Positions 14,843 to 27,301 of a DNA stretch of 27,301 nt are shown here, piece by piece. The stretch is from the IMG/VR virus record IMGVR_UViG_3300042876_000357, positions 1-27,301 of that record. One strand, given 5' to 3'. The notes under the pieces are model-generated. The model was not told where the DNA came from. It made no database searches and saw nothing but the letters and a program-made list of their open reading frames with translations. A program made the translations under genes and the position numbers. Source of the stretch: a virus. Numbering within the stretch: position 1 is the stretch's first letter; the number at the start of each line of letters is the position of its first letter.

Positions 14843-15748
14843 TTATCCTCTCTTCTGGTTTCCGGCCCACACCTTGGCAAAGGCGGCCTTGTCCTGGTCC
14901 GTGTCCTTGTAAACCCCCATCGAAACCCCGTACTGGAAGTCCTTCCGGTCGCTCTCGGGGAGGCTCGAAAACGCGACGTTGGTTGAAGGCTTCGGAACGG
15001 GTCCTCTCGCCCCAGCTACGGGAGAGGGAGGCGGGCGCACCGTCTCCTTCGCCTGCCCGGTGTCTCGCTTGTAGCGGTTTAGGATCTCGATCCCGACCCT
15101 CGCGTGAGGACTCCCGTACCACCCCTGCTGAACCGCCGGCGGTTGGTTGATGAGCCACACCTGGAACTCGTCGCTCTGCATGATCTGCGGGAGATCGGCG
15201 TGAACGGCCCGCACGGCGGCGACGATCGGGGGCTCTTCTTCCTGCGGAGGAGGAGGGGCGAGCGGCGGGAGTTTCTGGAGCCTCAAGAGCTCCAGCTCGT
15301 CGTTCTTCGCCTGGTCGATGTCCCCTGCGCCCAAGGCTTGATACTTGCTCTCGGTCAACTGCCGGATTCGGGCTTCGTAATCGGCCTTCGCGGCGGTAAA
15401 TTCCTCCTGCTGGCGCCTCGCTTCCTTCTCCTGCTGCCGGCGAAGTTCCGCGAACATGCGCGTTGAAGCGGCCTTTACGTCGTCCACCTCGCGCTTGAGG
15501 GTCCCGATGCGGTCTCCGAACTCGACGAACTCCTTCGCGGGCTTCCACTTCGCCGGGTCGCCCTTGAACTCCTCCTTAGGGACCCATCCCTGTTTGCGGG
15601 CTTCGGCGTCGTAGTCGGGCGCTGCCTCCACCTCGGGCTCGGGAGTCTCTGGAGCCGTAGCGGGTTCGACCGTATCCCCAGCCAGTGCCGCGAGGGCTGC
15701 AAGCTCTTCGGCGTCCCCTTCTCCGGGGGTGTAGAGGGGCTCAAGCAT
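14843..15748 (-). CDS. Scaffold-like head assembly protein
   Basis: This is a 301-residue acidic protein. The N-terminal 45 residues are Glu/Pro/Ala-rich and disordered. The ARKQGWVPKEEFKGDPAKWKPAKEFVEFGDR block (about 50-80) is a recurrent motif of phage scaffold proteins. Residues about 85-135 are a long charged coiled coil (VDDVKAAS, then RRQQEKEARRQQEEF). The Pro-rich middle is followed by a compact helical C-terminus that probably contacts coat subunits. The gene lies between the GroES-like gene (8-base overlap) and the coat genes, which fits a scaffold role. The start at 15748 has a GGGGGTGAG SD. No protease domain is visible, so removal of the scaffold is likely by exit and not by self-cleavage. 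Confidence 0.75.
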   Translation of the reverse strand: MLEPLYTPGEGDAEELAALAALAGDTVEPATAPETPEPEVEAAPDYDAEARKQGWVPKEEFKGDPAKWKPAKEFVEFGDRIGTLKREVDDVKAASTRMFAELRRQQEKEARRQQEEFTAAKADYEARIRQLTESKYQALGAGDIDQAKNDELELLRLQKLPPLAPPPPQEEEPPIVAAVRAVHADLPQIMQSDEFQVWLINQPPAVQQGWYGSPHARVGIEILNRYKRDTGQAKETVRPPPSPVAGARGPVPKPSTNVAFSSLPESDRKDFQYGVSMGVYKDTDQDKAAFAKVWAGNQKRG

Positions 15749-16073
15749 GGCTCACCCCCAACCCGGCCAAGATGTCCGTGTCGTAAGCGAACCGGAGGAG
15801 CTTTTCCTCTTCGTCGCTGGAGGGCAGAGAAATGGCCGAGTTCTTGTTGAAGAAAACCTTCGCTCCTTCCACCACTCCCCAGGCTTCGGGACCCCCGGAA
15901 TCCGCGTAGCATTGGGGTCCGAGGGCCACGACGGTGCCGATGGACTGCATGGCCTCCTGCCGGTCTTTCGACTGCTCCGGGATGATGATTCCGCCCGCCG
16001 TCGTCCGTTCCACGGCGTCGATTCGCACGAGGACGAGGTTCCCGAAGGGCTTCAAGTCTCCGAACATCTTCAT
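15741..16073 (-). CDS. GroES-like co-chaperonin (Cpn10)
   Basis: This 110-residue protein is expected to cap a GroEL-type chaperonin and direct folding of phage proteins. The Cpn10 signatures are all in order: an N-terminal strand NLVLVRID (12-19), the mobile loop with TTAGGIIIP (24-32), the core strand IGTVVALGP (45-53), the VVEGAKVFFNKNSA block (67-80), and the C-terminal DTDILAGL (98-105) that matches the S-D-I-L-A-I-V-type end. Bacterial GroES is about 97 residues; the roof region here is slightly longer. The start at 16073 overlaps the upstream stop (ATGA) with GGAGAG as SD. An in-frame extension to 16151 is rejected because it would overlap that gene. No GroEL is in the window, so it probably uses the host chaperonin, as T4 gp31 does. 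Confidence 0.9.
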   Translation of the reverse strand: MKMFGDLKPFGNLVLVRIDAVERTTAGGIIIPEQSKDRQEAMQSIGTVVALGPQCYADSGGPEAWGVVEGAKVFFNKNSAISLPSSDEEEKLLRFAYDTDILAGLGVSHA

Positions 16074-16306
16074 CAGCTCTCTCCGTCTTCTCTGGCCCAC
16101 TCGGGGCGGTGCTCTAGGGACGCCAACCGGCCCTTTCTCTCGGAAGTCCATGCGGTATAGGTGGCGGCGATCTCGTCCGTCGTCGGCCCCATGGCTCTGC
16201 CGTCCAGAAGGGCCTGCTCCAACTCTCTCAACTCCGCTTCGAGGCTTTGAAAAAAGGCCACAGTTACGGGTTCGGCCTTCCAGCGGTCGAAATCACTCTT
16301 GGTCAT
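16073..16306 (-). CDS. Small helical phage protein between portal and co-chaperonin
   Basis: This is a 77-residue charged, helical protein. The FDRWKAEPVTVAFFQSL start and a Leu/Glu-rich helix (EAELRELEQALLDG) resemble small proteins often encoded directly after portal genes of podoviruses. Their role is unknown. It starts at 16306 inside the 3' end of the portal gene (14-base overlap) with an AAGAGAG SD and ends in an ATGA overlap with the GroES-like gene. Tight coupling suggests co-translation with portal and co-chaperonin. There are no membrane segments or Cys motifs. Confidence 0.65.
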   Translation of the reverse strand: MTKSDFDRWKAEPVTVAFFQSLEAELRELEQALLDGRAMGPTTDEIAATYTAWTSERKGRLASLEHRPEWAREDGES

Positions 16307-18434
16307 GCGCTCTCTTGATCCGATTCTGGGTTGCCGTGACGGCGGCCTTCAGGTGGGCCTCTTCCCGCTTCCTCTGAACATCCAAATGGTCGATTTCGCG
16401 CTGATGTTCGAAGTTCGCAGCGTCCATTTCCCTCTGATGGGCCTGTTCGTCCTCGGTCATGGCGTGTTTGTGGGCCATTTCCTCCCGTTTCATCTCCAAT
16501 TCCGCCATCTTCCCCTGCAAATTGCCCTCTTGACGGAGCTTTTCCGCCTCGATCGAGGGGTCTGGAGGGGTTTGGGACGGGTCGGGAGGGGGCAAAATCA
16601 AGCCCTGTTGGTCGGCCTTGGGCACCTGGAGGGCGTTGGCGTGGATCTGAGCCAACCGCTGCGGGTTGTAGGGCAACTGGCCTTCGATCCGGCCCCTTAC
16701 GAGAGCATCCGCCCTCGCCATCGCCTGCTGTTCGGAGGTGATGGAAGGATCCGCCGAAGGGGAAACGTCCGTGTCGTCGGTCTGGTAGTCGGTGGGGAGG
16801 ACCATTCCGTACCCCGGAGGCAGCCCTCTCTCCGTGGCGAGGTCTTCCGGGGTGATGTCCAAGACCTGGAAGTATTCTTCCGCCGTGAGGTGGAGGCGGT
16901 TGAGGCGCTTGATCTTCTTCAGCTCTTGGGAAAGGGCTCGGTAGAGCCGCTTGTAGATGCCCTGGAAGACCTTTTGCCCCTGCTCCAGCATGGCGAGGGT
17001 GGTAGTAGCAGGTTGGTTGGTCGGCGGGCTGTCGCCCTGCATGGAATCGGTGACGGAGGTAAGCCTCTGCGCCCACTCGACGAGCAACCCGAGAAGCTGA
17101 AAGAGGACGGCCGAGGGTCCCTTGAAGGGGAACGGGACGAGACCTTTTGAAAGATCCTCGAACGGGGCGTTGACCTTGTGCCACTCGTTCATCGCGAGCT
17201 TCTTGGAGCCCGATTTCCAGTCCTTCGCGAGACTCGACGAGATGAACCCGCCTTGCAAATTTGCAAGGGTCCCCGCGTCCACCAACTGATTGACGAGGGT
17301 GTTGATGGCCTCGTTCATCGGGAAGAGGGTGTGCCCCCAGCCGAGGCCGAGGTTCCCTCCGGTGGGGTCAGGGAAAAAGACCCATTGGGTAAAGTATTCG
17401 TCGGGGGAGATCTTCGCGACCCGCCAGCCCTCGGCTTCGATGGCTTCCCAGGAAGGGGCCTCGAACTCTTCCAAGGCGGCGCGTTTGGTGAAGACCCCTT
17501 CCCCATGGGACAGAAAGATTCCGTCGACGTAGAACCGGGGAGAGATCTTCAGGACCTTCTTCGAATCCTTCAGGACGGTGAGGACGTAGGGCTCTTCGTA
17601 GCCGTCCCCGTCCAAGTCCTTCCACCAGTGTTGTTCTAAAAGGAGGTGAGGCGTGACGGACGGGTCGGAGGGGGCTTCCGTCCCTCCTACCTTGTCCTTG
17701 ATCTCGTCCTTCGGCTGGCTCTCGGAACTCGGGTCGGACAGCTCGACGTTCAGGAACTCCCCGAAGGACTGCTTTTCGAGGATCTCCTGCCGGTGCATCG
17801 GAATGACATGGGTTTTCCGCCGGCACTTCTCGACGTTCGGGCCGTAGTAGTCCCAGACCACATCCTTGACCGAGACCCGTTCGGAGCGAATCCCCTCCGC
17901 GTCCTTGTAGGTCTTCTTGATGTCGCAGCCCATGATCGGAAGGACGTGGAGGAGAACATCCATCCCCTCTACCCAACCCTCGATCTGCTCGATGAGTTGG
18001 TAGCTCATGTGCTGGCCGATGCGCTGGGCCTTTGCCAGTTTCTCGGCCGTGGGCTGGCCGTTCACCTTCCCCTTGACCGGCTCGGGCTCCTTGACCAACT
18101 GTGGGAAGGCTCTGGAAGCGAATTGCTGGGAGGCGATGGTCATCAGGGGCATCTTGACGTTCGACGCCCCCGGCCACGGGTGGGTTTTCGACTGGACGAC
18201 CTGCATCGCCAGTTCCATGGCCTTGTCCATCCGGGTTTCCCACCCCGAACGAGACGCGAGATCCTTCTCGTAGCCTTCGACGACTTCGTTTCCGATCAGG
18301 CCCAGCTGCGTTTCGTCCAGGTGAAAGGCTAGATTTTCACCCGACTGCACGGCCTGAAGGATCTGCCCGAAGGAGAGGTTTTTGGGGGTGACGACTTCTG
18401 GCTCCACCGCTTCGCTTTGACTCGTCGCGTGCAT
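16293..18434 (-). CDS. Portal protein (P22-like group)
   Basis: This 713-residue protein is the 12-subunit channel through which DNA enters and leaves the head. The family pattern is visible. WPGASNVKMPLMTIASQQFASRAFP (about 82-106) is the conserved early block. The GHTLFPMNEAINTLVNQLVDAGTLANLQGGF block (about 368-398) is the conserved stem and crown segment. The EYFTQWVFFPDPTGGNLGLGWG stretch precedes it. The C-terminal 100 residues are a long charged coiled coil rich in Met/Glu/His (EMKREEMAHKHAMTEDEQ), matching the barrel of P22-type portals. P22 gp1 is 725 residues, so length fits. No good SD is visible before the ATG at 18434. A plus-strand promoter overlaps its first codons. Confidence 0.9.
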   Translation of the reverse strand: MHATSQSEAVEPEVVTPKNLSFGQILQAVQSGENLAFHLDETQLGLIGNEVVEGYEKDLASRSGWETRMDKAMELAMQVVQSKTHPWPGASNVKMPLMTIASQQFASRAFPQLVKEPEPVKGKVNGQPTAEKLAKAQRIGQHMSYQLIEQIEGWVEGMDVLLHVLPIMGCDIKKTYKDAEGIRSERVSVKDVVWDYYGPNVEKCRRKTHVIPMHRQEILEKQSFGEFLNVELSDPSSESQPKDEIKDKVGGTEAPSDPSVTPHLLLEQHWWKDLDGDGYEEPYVLTVLKDSKKVLKISPRFYVDGIFLSHGEGVFTKRAALEEFEAPSWEAIEAEGWRVAKISPDEYFTQWVFFPDPTGGNLGLGWGHTLFPMNEAINTLVNQLVDAGTLANLQGGFISSSLAKDWKSGSKKLAMNEWHKVNAPFEDLSKGLVPFPFKGPSAVLFQLLGLLVEWAQRLTSVTDSMQGDSPPTNQPATTTLAMLEQGQKVFQGIYKRLYRALSQELKKIKRLNRLHLTAEEYFQVLDITPEDLATERGLPPGYGMVLPTDYQTDDTDVSPSADPSITSEQQAMARADALVRGRIEGQLPYNPQRLAQIHANALQVPKADQQGLILPPPDPSQTPPDPSIEAEKLRQEGNLQGKMAELEMKREEMAHKHAMTEDEQAHQREMDAANFEHQREIDHLDVQRKREEAHLKAAVTATQNRIKRAHDQE

Positions 18435-18444
18435 TTGCTATACT
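18417..18444 (+). promoter_or_regulatory. Sigma-70-like promoter with extended -10 for the plus-strand moron
   Basis: TTGACT (18417-18422) and TATACT (18439-18444) are separated by 16 bases, and TGC immediately before the -10 makes an extended -10 element. The predicted start is near 18451, at the beginning of AAGGAGGT, so the 5' leader is very short. The -35 lies inside the portal coding sequence, read from the other strand. Confidence 0.82.
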
Positions 18445-18464
18445 CGGACCAAGGAGGTGCCGTA

Positions 18465-18677
18465 ATGGATATGACTGTTCCTAAAGGTTTTGTCCCTGTC
18501 CTTACGAAGTACGACACACCCAAGGCCGAAGCGGTCAAGTCTAAGGGCTCTGCAGGAGACCTCGTCCGCATCATCGACGGGGTGGTTGTTTGGATTGACG
18601 ACCCCGAGAAAGCCACACATACAGTCATTGGGACTTCCGATGGCTTGATGTGGTGCGATAGGCTGCCTCGTAGGTAG
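18465..18677 (+). CDS. Plus-strand moron-like small protein between large terminase and portal
   Basis: This 70-residue protein is encoded against the late operon. Evidence that it is real includes a near-perfect SD (AAGGAGGT, 18451-18458) 6 bases before the ATG, a dedicated promoter at 18417-18444, balanced amino-acid use, and a convergent stop only 2 bases from the large terminase stop. The protein is not recognised. It has a VPVLTKYDTPKAEAVKSKGSAGDL start and a beta-rich core (VRIIDGVVVWIDD, HTVIGTSDGLMW). Its base composition appears less GC-rich than its neighbours, which suggests acquisition. The 84-residue minus-strand ORF over the same bases looks like a shadow. Morons often alter the host; no function is claimed. 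Confidence 0.82.
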   Translation: MDMTVPKGFVPVLTKYDTPKAEAVKSKGSAGDLVRIIDGVVVWIDDPEKATHTVIGTSDGLMWCDRLPRR

Positions 18678-18679
18678 CA

Positions 18680-20272
18680 TCAGTACCCGCACACCGAGGA
18701 CGCTCCGGTAAAGGAGGGTTCCTCGCCATAGAAGGTTTCTTCTTCATCCGAGGAAGAGCCGTCGAGGAGGTCGGAGGAGTAGAGACGGGTTCCCACGTAC
18801 TGGAGGGATTCGTGTACGTCGGACATGGGATGGGACTTATCGGGCTCGTCTGTATAGTGCTCTCCCGATACCTGTTTTCTTTTATAGCAGTAGGCTCCCT
18901 GGAATCCCTTGCGGAGCGTTTTACATTTCGGGCCTATCTGAAACTCTGGGAGGCCCCCGATCATTCCCCTTAGCGCCCTAGAGACGCTATTGATGCGGAT
19001 AGTCGGGTTTTGCATTCCAGGCTCTACGTCAATTCCCTTGGCGGCCAGTATCTGAACACAGGTCGCTTCGCTCTTGTCTCCCTTGTACCACCCGGACGGG
19101 TCTCCGTAGTCAACGTAATTAAAGCCAGGGTACTCTTGAGCGCAGTGCTTCTTTACAACGTCGCCAAATTCGTCGATGTTTGTGTCTTTCGAAACAAGTT
19201 CGTCAAACACACGCCACCGGCCCTTTGGATCAACAAACGAAAGGCTGGAGCACGGGGTTCTTCCCCAATCCCATCCCCGGAGGATCTTGAAGCCCTTGAG
19301 TGGGGAGAAGAGATTGGGATTGAAGTGGACCGCATCGTTGTACTCGGGATAGACGGGCTTCCCTTCCACCACGAAGCCGTATTGCCCCTTGACGTAGACG
19401 TTGATCCACTCTTGAGACTTGCCGACGCAGAGGTTCGGATAGTAGCCGGGGCGGAGGTTCTCGACGTTCTCGGCTTCGGGGGATAGACCGGAGGGCTGTT
19501 TCCAGAAGCGATACTTCAGGGCGAATCGTTCGAAGGCTTTCCAGGCTTCGGCTTCGTTGCCCGCAGTCTTCGTGATCTCGGCTTCTACGGCCTCCCGCAT
19601 CCCCCGGAGAGCATCTCCGTCAAAAGCCTCCGCGATGCTCCGCAGACCATGCCATGGGTCGGAGTAGGACTTGCGATCCCGCCAAATCCGCCGCAAGAGG
19701 GGGTCGATTTCTTCCGAGAGCCGATACCACCAGTGGTCAGAGTCGGGGGGGTTGGTGTCCAAGAGAATGCCGGAACGGTACTCGGGGCAGTCCTGGATCC
19801 TCGGATATCTCCCGACGCGCCCATCGAGCATGTCGAGGACTTCCAAGGGGACTTCCCGCGCCTCGTTGATCCACCCGAAGGTGAGTTCAAGAGAGAGGAG
19901 GTTCTTGATGTCCTCCGGCTTGTCGAGGGCTCGGAACAGGAACTCGGCCTCCACCCCCTTGATCTTCCAGCGGTGAGCCATGTCGTTCTTGTGAAACGGG
20001 CCGAACTGGTTCTCTGGGAACCACTCCAGCCATGTTTTCACAGTAGTATCGAGGAGTTGGCGGTAGGTGTTCCTGATGATGCCGGCCCGGAACCTTCGCT
20101 TTCCGTCGTGGCAGGGAACGATCGTGAGGGCCTGCTTGGCGAGGTCGGCGGCGCACCCAGACGACTTCCCGCTCCCCACGGGACCCATCAGCCCGCGGAC
20201 GAAGGCGTTCGAGTCCATGAAGGATTGAACCGTCTTCGGAGGGTCGAAATGGATCGTGACCGGCTTCGCCAA
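18680..20272 (-). CDS. terL: Terminase large subunit
   Basis: This 530-residue enzyme translocates DNA into the head and cuts it. The ATPase half shows Walker A GPVGSGKSS (30-38), a Walker B segment ELTFGWINEA with catalytic Glu 137, and a coupling motif LLDTNPP (170-176). The nuclease half shows acidic residues in GWDWG (D335), VDYGDPSG (D388/D391) and SDVHESLQY (D485). The start is TTG at 20272, because no ATG lies before the conserved N-terminus. An internal ATG at 20218 would remove the adenine-binding region just before Walker A. A GGAGG 9 bases before the TTG lies in the 3' arm of a terminator hairpin and may be the SD. No recombination- or homing-type insertion is seen. Confidence 0.95.
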   Translation of the reverse strand: MAKPVTIHFDPPKTVQSFMDSNAFVRGLMGPVGSGKSSGCAADLAKQALTIVPCHDGKRRFRAGIIRNTYRQLLDTTVKTWLEWFPENQFGPFHKNDMAHRWKIKGVEAEFLFRALDKPEDIKNLLSLELTFGWINEAREVPLEVLDMLDGRVGRYPRIQDCPEYRSGILLDTNPPDSDHWWYRLSEEIDPLLRRIWRDRKSYSDPWHGLRSIAEAFDGDALRGMREAVEAEITKTAGNEAEAWKAFERFALKYRFWKQPSGLSPEAENVENLRPGYYPNLCVGKSQEWINVYVKGQYGFVVEGKPVYPEYNDAVHFNPNLFSPLKGFKILRGWDWGRTPCSSLSFVDPKGRWRVFDELVSKDTNIDEFGDVVKKHCAQEYPGFNYVDYGDPSGWYKGDKSEATCVQILAAKGIDVEPGMQNPTIRINSVSRALRGMIGGLPEFQIGPKCKTLRKGFQGAYCYKRKQVSGEHYTDEPDKSHPMSDVHESLQYVGTRLYSSDLLDGSSSDEEETFYGEEPSFTGASSVCGY

Positions 20273-25183: not shown

Positions 25184-25369
25184 ATGGCGACTCTATTAGA
25201 ACTCATGGACCGTATGGTCAACATCATATATGACCACAGGTATCAGGCCGCCTGGGACAGGGCCACGATACGCAACCACTCCGAGGACGTCGACCCGAGA
25301 GCAACCGATCGGTATTGGACCGAGCACAGGATTGCCGACGCCGCAGAATGGGACTCCGATCCCGGCTAA
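25184..25369 (+). CDS. Small acidic protein, first gene of the rightward block
   Basis: This is a 61-residue protein with a GAGGAAAGGAACGAAC SD region before the ATG. The first 25 residues are helical (MATLLELMDRMVNIIYDHRY), followed by a polar part rich in Asp, Arg and His and a W-rich end (DRYWTEHRIADAAEWDSDPG). It resembles many small early phage proteins in size and charge. No family was recognised. Confidence 0.68.
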   Translation: MATLLELMDRMVNIIYDHRYQAAWDRATIRNHSEDVDPRATDRYWTEHRIADAAEWDSDPG

Positions 25370-25679: not shown

Positions 25680-25916
25680 ATGCGGGCTCAAAGCATTCTA
25701 TGTGATCCGACCTGGGCGAAATTCGAATGCGACCACGGCGCGCGATGGACCGAGGTTGTGGAATATGGCCTCACGTCCCACGAGGGCGATACCTGCTGTT
25801 TCAGTGGTTGCGCGGCCGATCACTCCATCCATTGCCGAGGCACGACCGAGGACACGGGCGAGGCTCACGCCTGGTTCCGGCGCCCCCAAATAACCGCAGA
25901 GGAGACGAAACCATGA
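25680..25916 (+). CDS. Small Cys/His-rich protein of the rightward block
   Basis: This is a 78-residue protein. The ATG at 25680 follows AGAGAGGAGAAACC. It is rich in Cys and His in a spaced pattern (SILC, FECDHGARW, DTCCFSGC, ADHSIHC) that could bind a metal ion, although it is not a textbook zinc finger. It ends in an ATGA overlap with the next gene. An ORF start 33 bases upstream is not preferred because it lies before the SD. Confidence 0.66.
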   Translation: MRAQSILCDPTWAKFECDHGARWTEVVEYGLTSHEGDTCCFSGCAADHSIHCRGTTEDTGEAHAWFRRPQITAEETKP

Positions 25917-26365
25917 CGACACACACCCCTACCGTAGCGCAATTTGCCCGATGGGCTCGTAACCACCACGAGCTCGCCCACGCCGTCTGTCTCTCTATGG
26001 CCTTCGCACAGGTCGAACGAGAGCGCGTCAACGCCTACATCCTGCCGATCTTTCAGCGGTACGGGTTCCGGGACGACGAGGGGAAGCCGATCACCAACCC
26101 CGAGCGCCTCTACACCTGCACTGATGAGGAACGGGTTGCCGCCTACTACGAGGAATGCGACCGAGCCCATAGAGAGCACGGATTCACGGGTCCGAAGGGG
26201 CACTGTCCCGCGCTCACCGCCGAAGATGCTTTGGTCAAGGCCGAGAACGCCCTCATTCGCGCTGCCTCCGCGCTGACGGGTATTGAGGTTGGGGAGGTCT
26301 ACCTGGAATCGCGGAGGAAATACTTGGATATCCTGCTGGGCGCGTGCATCAAGAAAGCGGCCTAG
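25913..26365 (+). CDS. Uncharacterised helical protein of the rightward block
   Basis: This is a 150-residue protein. The start at 25913 overlaps the preceding stop (ATGA) and follows GAGGAGACGAAACC; the upstream in-frame extension to 25727 is a shadow of the Cys/His-rich gene. It is mostly helical (VAQFARWARNHHELAHAV, RVNAYILPIFQRYGF). A NPERLYTCTDEERVAAYYEECDRA segment and a GHCPALTAEDALVKAENALIRA segment are probably conserved features of the family, although I cannot name it. Early phage proteins of this size often interact with host factors; that is not shown here. Confidence 0.72.
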   Translation: MTTHTPTVAQFARWARNHHELAHAVCLSMAFAQVERERVNAYILPIFQRYGFRDDEGKPITNPERLYTCTDEERVAAYYEECDRAHREHGFTGPKGHCPALTAEDALVKAENALIRAASALTGIEVGEVYLESRRKYLDILLGACIKKAA

Positions 26366-26380: not shown

Positions 26381-26452
26381 TGCGCCCCTCTGTGGACGTG
26401 ATTCAGTTTGACACAAGAACAGCCCACGATTTGGGGCGAGAGGAGAGAGACC

Positions 26453-26953
26453 ATGTACGACATCGCCTGTCCTGAATGCAACGCCCGCCTGTCCGAGTGC
26501 GGCTCAAACGAGCACGGTTATCGGCTGCCCAGTGAAATGTTCGCGGTCGGCCTGCCCGCGCGCGGGAGCATGGGGCATGCCATGTTTTTTACTAACGATG
26601 GTCGCACGGCCCTCTGTAGCGCAAAACGTCTTGCCGCCGTCTCCCTCGGCCGCAGGGGGGGGCTCGCCAAGTCTAAAGCCAAGGCCGCCGCGTCTCGAGA
26701 GAATGGGCGGCGAAACGGCCGGCGCCTCTACTTGGGCCAAATCAACGCGGAATTGGAGCGGCTCCGCGTTGGCTCTGAGGATCTCGGCCCCTGCGATTCC
26801 ATCGTGGCCAGCCAACAGGGGGATCTCTACCAGCTCGCGGATGATGGCGCTAACGTTTCGGCCTCTGCTCGTCGGATCTTGCGGCGGCTCCGCCCTCTAC
26901 CGGACGGTGCGGGTTATGAGGCGACATGGGCGGCGCTGGCCGATCTCGCGTAA
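26453..26953 (+). CDS. Zinc-binding-like protein with basic GRxGG-type region
   Basis: This is a 166-residue protein. The start at 26453 follows GAGAGGAGAGAGACC; a TTG 45 bases upstream is not preferred. The N-terminus has C-P-E-C (7-10), then further Cys (18, 54), so a metal site is possible. Residues about 61-90 (VSLGRRGGLAKSKAKAAASRENG, then RRNGRR) are a strongly basic G-R-x-G-G ... A-A-x-R-x-N-G-R motif. This motif is known from many phage and plasmid small proteins, probably DNA- or RNA-associated. The C-terminus is helical (INAELERLRVGSED and ARRILRRLRPLPDGAGYEATWAALA). A convergent hairpin follows 7 bases past the stop. Confidence 0.75.
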   Translation: MYDIACPECNARLSECGSNEHGYRLPSEMFAVGLPARGSMGHAMFFTNDGRTALCSAKRLAAVSLGRRGGLAKSKAKAAASRENGRRNGRRLYLGQINAELERLRVGSEDLGPCDSIVASQQGDLYQLADDGANVSASARRILRRLRPLPDGAGYEATWAALADLA

Positions 26954-26960
26954 GTCTCCC

Positions 26961-26978
26961 GGCCCCCGCAAGGGGGCC
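26961..26978. terminator. Convergent hairpin with GCAA loop between rightward block and lipoprotein gene
   Basis: GGCCCCC (26961-26967) and GGGGGCC (26972-26978) form a perfect 7-bp stem around a GCAA (GNRA) tetraloop. It lies between two converging genes (stops at 26953 and 26981). Downstream on the plus strand is TCTCACTCC, only weakly T-rich. It is likely a shared transcript end or 3' stabiliser. Confidence 0.6.
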
Positions 26979-26980
26979 TC

Positions 26981-27238
26981 TCACTCCTTCACCAGCGAGC
27001 ACTCCCCTGAAAATCCGTGCTTCGCCGCTGATCCGTTGCAGATTTGAAGCGCCTTCTTCTGCGCGGTCTCCTGGTCGGGCGCCCCAGCCCACATCCCCCA
27101 GGCCGTTCTGCCGTTCTCGTAGATCACCGCTGCGGCTCGATGGGGCGGTTTTGTGCGGAATTCTGACATTGCTGTTCCGAAGTTGTTCTCGGTTGTCGCG
27201 CACCCGGAGAGGAGTAGGCAGAAGAGGAGTTTTCGCAT
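26981..27238 (-). CDS. Small lipoprotein with C-terminal DUF4189-like pattern
   Basis: This is an 85-residue protein with a very short lipoprotein signal (MRKLLFCLLLSGC, lipobox L-S-G-C, lipidated Cys 13). The mature part contains AAVIYENGRTAWGMWAGAP and QKKALQICNGS, ending GECSLV. This alternation of a beta-strand, a helix with A-x-x-x-A-L-x-x-C and a final Cys-containing strand resembles small periplasmic DUF4189-type domains. Two Cys in the mature part could pair. An AAGGGGG SD precedes the ATG at 27238. A TACACT -10-like element (27272-27267) lies upstream but lacks a good -35. As a leftward gene at the right edge it may be a lysogenic-conversion or surface protein; no role is claimed. 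Confidence 0.75.
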   Translation of the reverse strand: MRKLLFCLLLSGCATTENNFGTAMSEFRTKPPHRAAAVIYENGRTAWGMWAGAPDQETAQKKALQICNGSAAKHGFSGECSLVKE

Positions 27239-27301
27239 GGTGTCCCCCTTGTGAGAGTTTCGGGGGAGTGTAGCGCACGAGATAGGGGTCGGCTAGCCTA
27301 G

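Follow-up and report, generated by a model that had tools for sequence, protein, structure and literature searches.

The term moron goes back to Juhala et al. (2000, as cited in PMC7067206). Phage morons have been described as genes often transferred together with terminators, and in the same work an inverted gene without a terminator was treated as a prospective moron (PMC2147016). In addition, a gene lying antisense to the lytic genes of a prophage, driven by its own promoter and expressed in lysogeny, was reported for the Salmonella prophage ST64B (STMMW_20121), and lying antisense to lytic genes while having a promoter of its own was regarded as characteristic of accessory loci (PMC7067206).

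The window analyzed here is an entire virus record of 27,301 bases, which represents a genome fragment. In this window, a gene for a 70-aa protein (P0001; 18465 to 18677, plus strand; ATG at 18465, TAG at 18675-18677) is located between the genes for the large terminase and the portal protein, both of which are encoded on the minus strand. The large terminase gene (terL; Terminase_3; 18680 to 20272) was identified by PHROGs and Pfam, its relatives including TerL of BcepC6B, and the portal gene (16293 to 18434) was identified by PHROGs. A gene for a GroES-like co-chaperonin (PHROG 3188; 15741 to 16151, minus strand) was found directly downstream of the portal gene; a GroES-like co-chaperonin is also annotated near the portal in three loci of relatives (L083, L084, L085).

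P0001 is probably a phage moron, inserted in reverse orientation, that carries a host sigma-70 promoter and encodes a soluble accessory protein. Features shared with phage morons included a single gene placed between genes that are adjacent in relatives, its own sigma-70-type promoter and transcriptional isolation by inversion. Its GC content is below that of the portal gene and the window, but equals that of the adjoining terL end. P0001 differed from them in that it has no terminator, its protein is an orphan and its expression is predicted. Since a terminator-less inverted gene was accepted as a prospective moron in PMC2147016, the missing terminator lowers the moron claim without overturning it. 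Like STMMW_20121, P0001 is antisense to lytic genes, has its own promoter and is a candidate for an accessory or regulatory role; however, the expression of STMMW_20121 was measured in the lysogen and that of P0001 is predicted, and the likeness is one of arrangement.

An earlier note on this DNA had described a promoter of the form TTGACT-N16-TATACT with an extended -10, which was indeed present on the plus strand (18417 to 18444), consisting of TTGACT (18417-18422), a 16-nt spacer and TATACT (18439-18444), with TG at 18436-18437. Judged by consensus match only, it agreed with 10 of 12 consensus positions and was the best sigma-70-type site of the 27.3-kb record and the sole one of at least 10/12 on either strand. 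As claimed, the promoter lies at the portal start, flanking the start codon (18432-18434). The Shine-Dalgarno (SD) sequence AAGGAGGT (18451 to 18458, plus strand) is located 6 nt before the ATG, and its predicted duplex (-12.7 kcal/mol) was stronger than that of every minus-strand start site compared. When the transcription start was placed 7 nt past the -10, it fell at about 18451, the first base of the SD, predicting a leader of 14 nt in agreement with the very short leader proposed before. The start of P0001 had been set at 18417, which turned out to be wrong: at this position the -35 hexamer begins, and its TTG was counted as a start by the ORF lister. The stops of P0001 and terL are 2 bases apart (18678-18679), as noted previously.

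In 3 kb, one promoter of at least 9/12 was found against 0.7 expected, so that a promoter of this quality alone is not rare. In 150 Markov simulations with the same trinucleotide make-up as the record, by comparison, sites of at least 10/12 with TG numbered 0.027 per record, and a promoter, SD, start and ORF (at least 40 codons) occurred together in 1 of 150 simulations, or 0.007 times per record. The unit found at P0001 is unlikely to be due to chance.

Elsewhere in the record, three clustered 9/12 promoter-like sites were found on both strands between 24930 and 25069 (+25041, -25032, -24959), and plus-strand ORFs are located to the right of them (25184-25369, 25727-26365, 26408-26953, 26926-27273). 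This is perhaps a divergent early control region, and the leftward block may then end near 25 kb. No integrase or repressor was recognized among the genes scanned in the record, which is incomplete, and searches for Rfam families and tRNAs gave no hit.

The terminase and the portal have separate sets of relatives: the 80 loci of terminase relatives are BcepC6B-like, and none contained a recognizable relative of this portal, the portal relatives being drawn from another set. This suggests that two modules are joined where P0001 lies; L082, in which relatives of this terminase and this portal lie side by side, runs counter to it. Among 66 portal relatives preceded by a long ORF, the terL-portal gap was 30 nt or shorter in 53 and longer than 100 nt in 12; the preceding ORF was chosen for its size and location rather than for a terminase match in every case, and similar contigs contributed separate counts. 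The two genes abut in L082/L089, L083, L084, L085 and most other relatives. A 1-nt overlap of terL stop and portal start (TRATG) was present in 14 of the 49 relatives listed in detail; the portal starts on the terminase stop in L082, L084 and L085 and 1 nt past it in L083.

The long gaps, six of which were read fully and the others via ORF lists, contained a filler ORF on the strand of terL and the portal, and the same was found in three further gaps in genome contigs, one of them in Zavarzinia marina. These inserts (L095, L102, L107, L111-L113, L116, L138, L151, L171, L176) occupy the same junction as P0001, but they differ from it in strand and have no detectable sequence similarity to it. 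The inserts of L102, L107, L112, L113 and L116 (170 to 201 aa, no Pfam match) are perhaps one family recurring at this junction. In the Z. marina locus L171, the gap is occupied by a same-strand ORF of 157 aa (2454-2927) that overlaps the end of terL; its sequence may resemble a self-compartmentalized protease-like N-terminus. Further, a scan of 1.55 Mb of relatives' loci for units of promoter, SD and ORF revealed, among the units listed, none on the opposite strand between terL and portal; almost all of the opposite-strand units listed were upstream of terL. The comparison of gene order suggested in the earlier note thus showed computationally that the relatives examined have no opposite-strand gene at this junction, which supports a moron-like insertion, the empty site being known only from relatives whose portals are about 46% identical or less.

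The sequence of the junction suggests how the insertion is built. In the window, terL ends with GGGTACTGATG, an ending shared with L089/L082, the nearest of the portal relatives, where the ATG at this place starts the portal gene. The terL stop is accordingly overlapped by an ATG (TGATG; 18678 to 18682, minus strand) matching the portal start of relatives, but here this ATG (18680-18678) opens a frame extending to 18438, where it closes; the portal gene starts at a new ATG at 18434, with a weak predicted SD duplex (-2.5 kcal/mol). We infer that the insertion generated this new portal start. Portal homology resumes about 300 nt beyond the terL stop. Because the first approximately 18 portal residues are missing in most relatives (median shift -18, 49 loci), the insert may span up to 300 nt (18378 to 18677), including the whole promoter. 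Equally long portal N-termini occur in L123, L133, L153 and L167, so that a shorter, minimal insert (18435 to 18677) is also possible. Among the repeats flanking the insertion, no convincing target duplication was found.

The frame opened by the former portal ATG (P0007; 18438 to 18680, minus strand, 80 aa) is in codon register with P0001. It begins at the TGATG on the terL stop and its TAG stop lies 3 nt before the portal ATG, a placement ideal for translational coupling, and in some relatives unrelated same-strand genes occupy the terL-portal junction. Both points would fit a gene on the minus strand, namely P0007 as a coupled member of the late operon, with the plus-strand signals arising by chance. 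However, codon usage favored P0001 over P0007 by 15.5 bits when scored with genes of this phage and by 18.9 bits with genes of the relatives, in a test whose sign was correct for approximately 98% of segments from known genes. Of 279 antisense shadows, none reached the score of P0001. An open in-register antisense frame was present in 65% of 70-codon segments in genes of this phage, and 75% was predicted for P0001; the openness of P0007 is therefore expected by chance, and selection for an open antisense frame was not supported. Position-specific GC, in the correct frame, did not separate the two strands. No relatives of P0007 were found, and a conserved minus-strand protein, named in advance as the observation that would speak against the plus-strand gene, was absent in the relatives examined. 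A minus-strand gene would also leave the unit of promoter and SD unexplained. P0007 was judged to be a shadow and rejected as a gene on codon odds, and the late-operon gene is a very unlikely explanation; by computation, the coding strand is that of P0001. It is likewise doubtful, but conceivable, that the insertion remodeled portal expression such that P0007 is translated from the old portal ATG, preserving terL-portal coupling; one stretch of 240 bp would then be translated from both of its strands, and the moron promoter would also encode the new portal N-terminus. If true, this would explain why the insertion leaves the essential portal gene on.

A role of the plus-strand transcript itself was considered in the same way. 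The transcript had been described as antisense to terL mRNA; this holds for the terL-portal intercistronic RNA, but would hold for the terL coding sequence only if transcription reads past 18679. No intrinsic terminator was found in 17000-20000, nor any T-run after the hairpins downstream of P0001, so the RNA could run on into terL antisense. The candidate dampening of late genes would need such read-through, interference between convergent promoters or intercistronic pairing. The possible read-through, the weak portal SD and a promoter that faces the late operon where the portal gene begins would all suit an RNA acting mainly in regulation, as an antisense RNA or through convergent transcription, to reduce expression of portal or terL, with the protein being secondary. 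In contrast, an SD stronger than at any other start compared and the coding-like frame indicate a protein, and the predicted RNA start lies outside the portal coding sequence, making a primarily regulatory RNA improbable. Regarding the origin of P0001, the GC content was 53.5% for P0001, 60.3% for the portal gene, 57.8% for terL and 61.9% for the window, and 2.5% of 213-nt windows had GC as low as P0001. The last 630 nt of terL, however, were level with P0001 (54%); the description of P0001 as less GC-rich than its surroundings is hence correct relative to the portal gene and incorrect relative to the adjoining terL end. Pattern scans of IMG/VR and GTDB, which catch close relatives only, revealed no homologue of P0001, and tblastn against phages and plasmids gave nothing significant; two plasmid matches (E 4-5) were judged to be noise. 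No significant match was obtained with the HMM libraries Pfam, PHROGs, NCBIfam and PADLOC or with PDB sequences, which yielded no known anti-CRISPR, exclusion or defence family. Homologues were likewise absent from the whole records of 50 relatives, from 9 genomes behind portal relatives and from 385 + 398 bacterial genomes. A single-sequence AlphaFold model with four strands at residues 33-65 was unreliable, and its pLDDT of 47 was too poor for a fold search. The lack of a homologue of the protein, which leaves transfer from elsewhere a presumption, the missing terminator, the lack of a close relative of this phage and the GC shared with the adjoining terL end were counted against the moron reading. 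The lack of a foreign homologue and the GC of the terL end would also be expected of an old lineage-specific gene, for example for early host takeover, rather than a recent import. This alternative overlaps the moron reading with respect to expression. Against it, none of the relatives examined has a counterpart of P0001 at the junction, and we regard it as a possible but less likely origin.

For the preferred reading of P0001 as a moron, the claim of a moron-like gene on the opposite strand with its own expression unit was backed by the statistics of the unit, the coding strand and the presence/absence pattern at the junction. Promoter activity, timing and function class are inferred as follows. 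A segment of approximately 243-300 bp with a complete transcription and translation unit would have been inserted in reverse between the terminase and portal genes in a tailed phage, keeping the TGATG and moving the portal start to the new ATG inside the promoter of P0001. Recognition of this promoter by host sigma-70 polymerase would yield an mRNA with a leader of approximately 14 nt dominated by the strong SD. The product (7.7 kDa, pI 6.5) lacks hydrophobic stretches of the membrane-helix type and is most likely a soluble protein. Judged from position and signals alone, it is most likely an accessory protein whose production is early or constitutive. It would not depend on the late programme and would appear early in infection, and also in the lysogen should the phage be temperate. 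Expression during lysogeny, which had been proposed before, is possible. The target is most likely the host or a competing phage (anti-defence, superinfection exclusion or host modulation), and a role in the virion is less likely. Morons are a known kind of gene, of which P0001 is a fresh orphan example. It adds an orphan accessory gene with a directly testable expression unit and, if the proposed insertion is correct, shows a route by which a reverse-oriented gene may enter one of the tightest junctions of the phage late operon.
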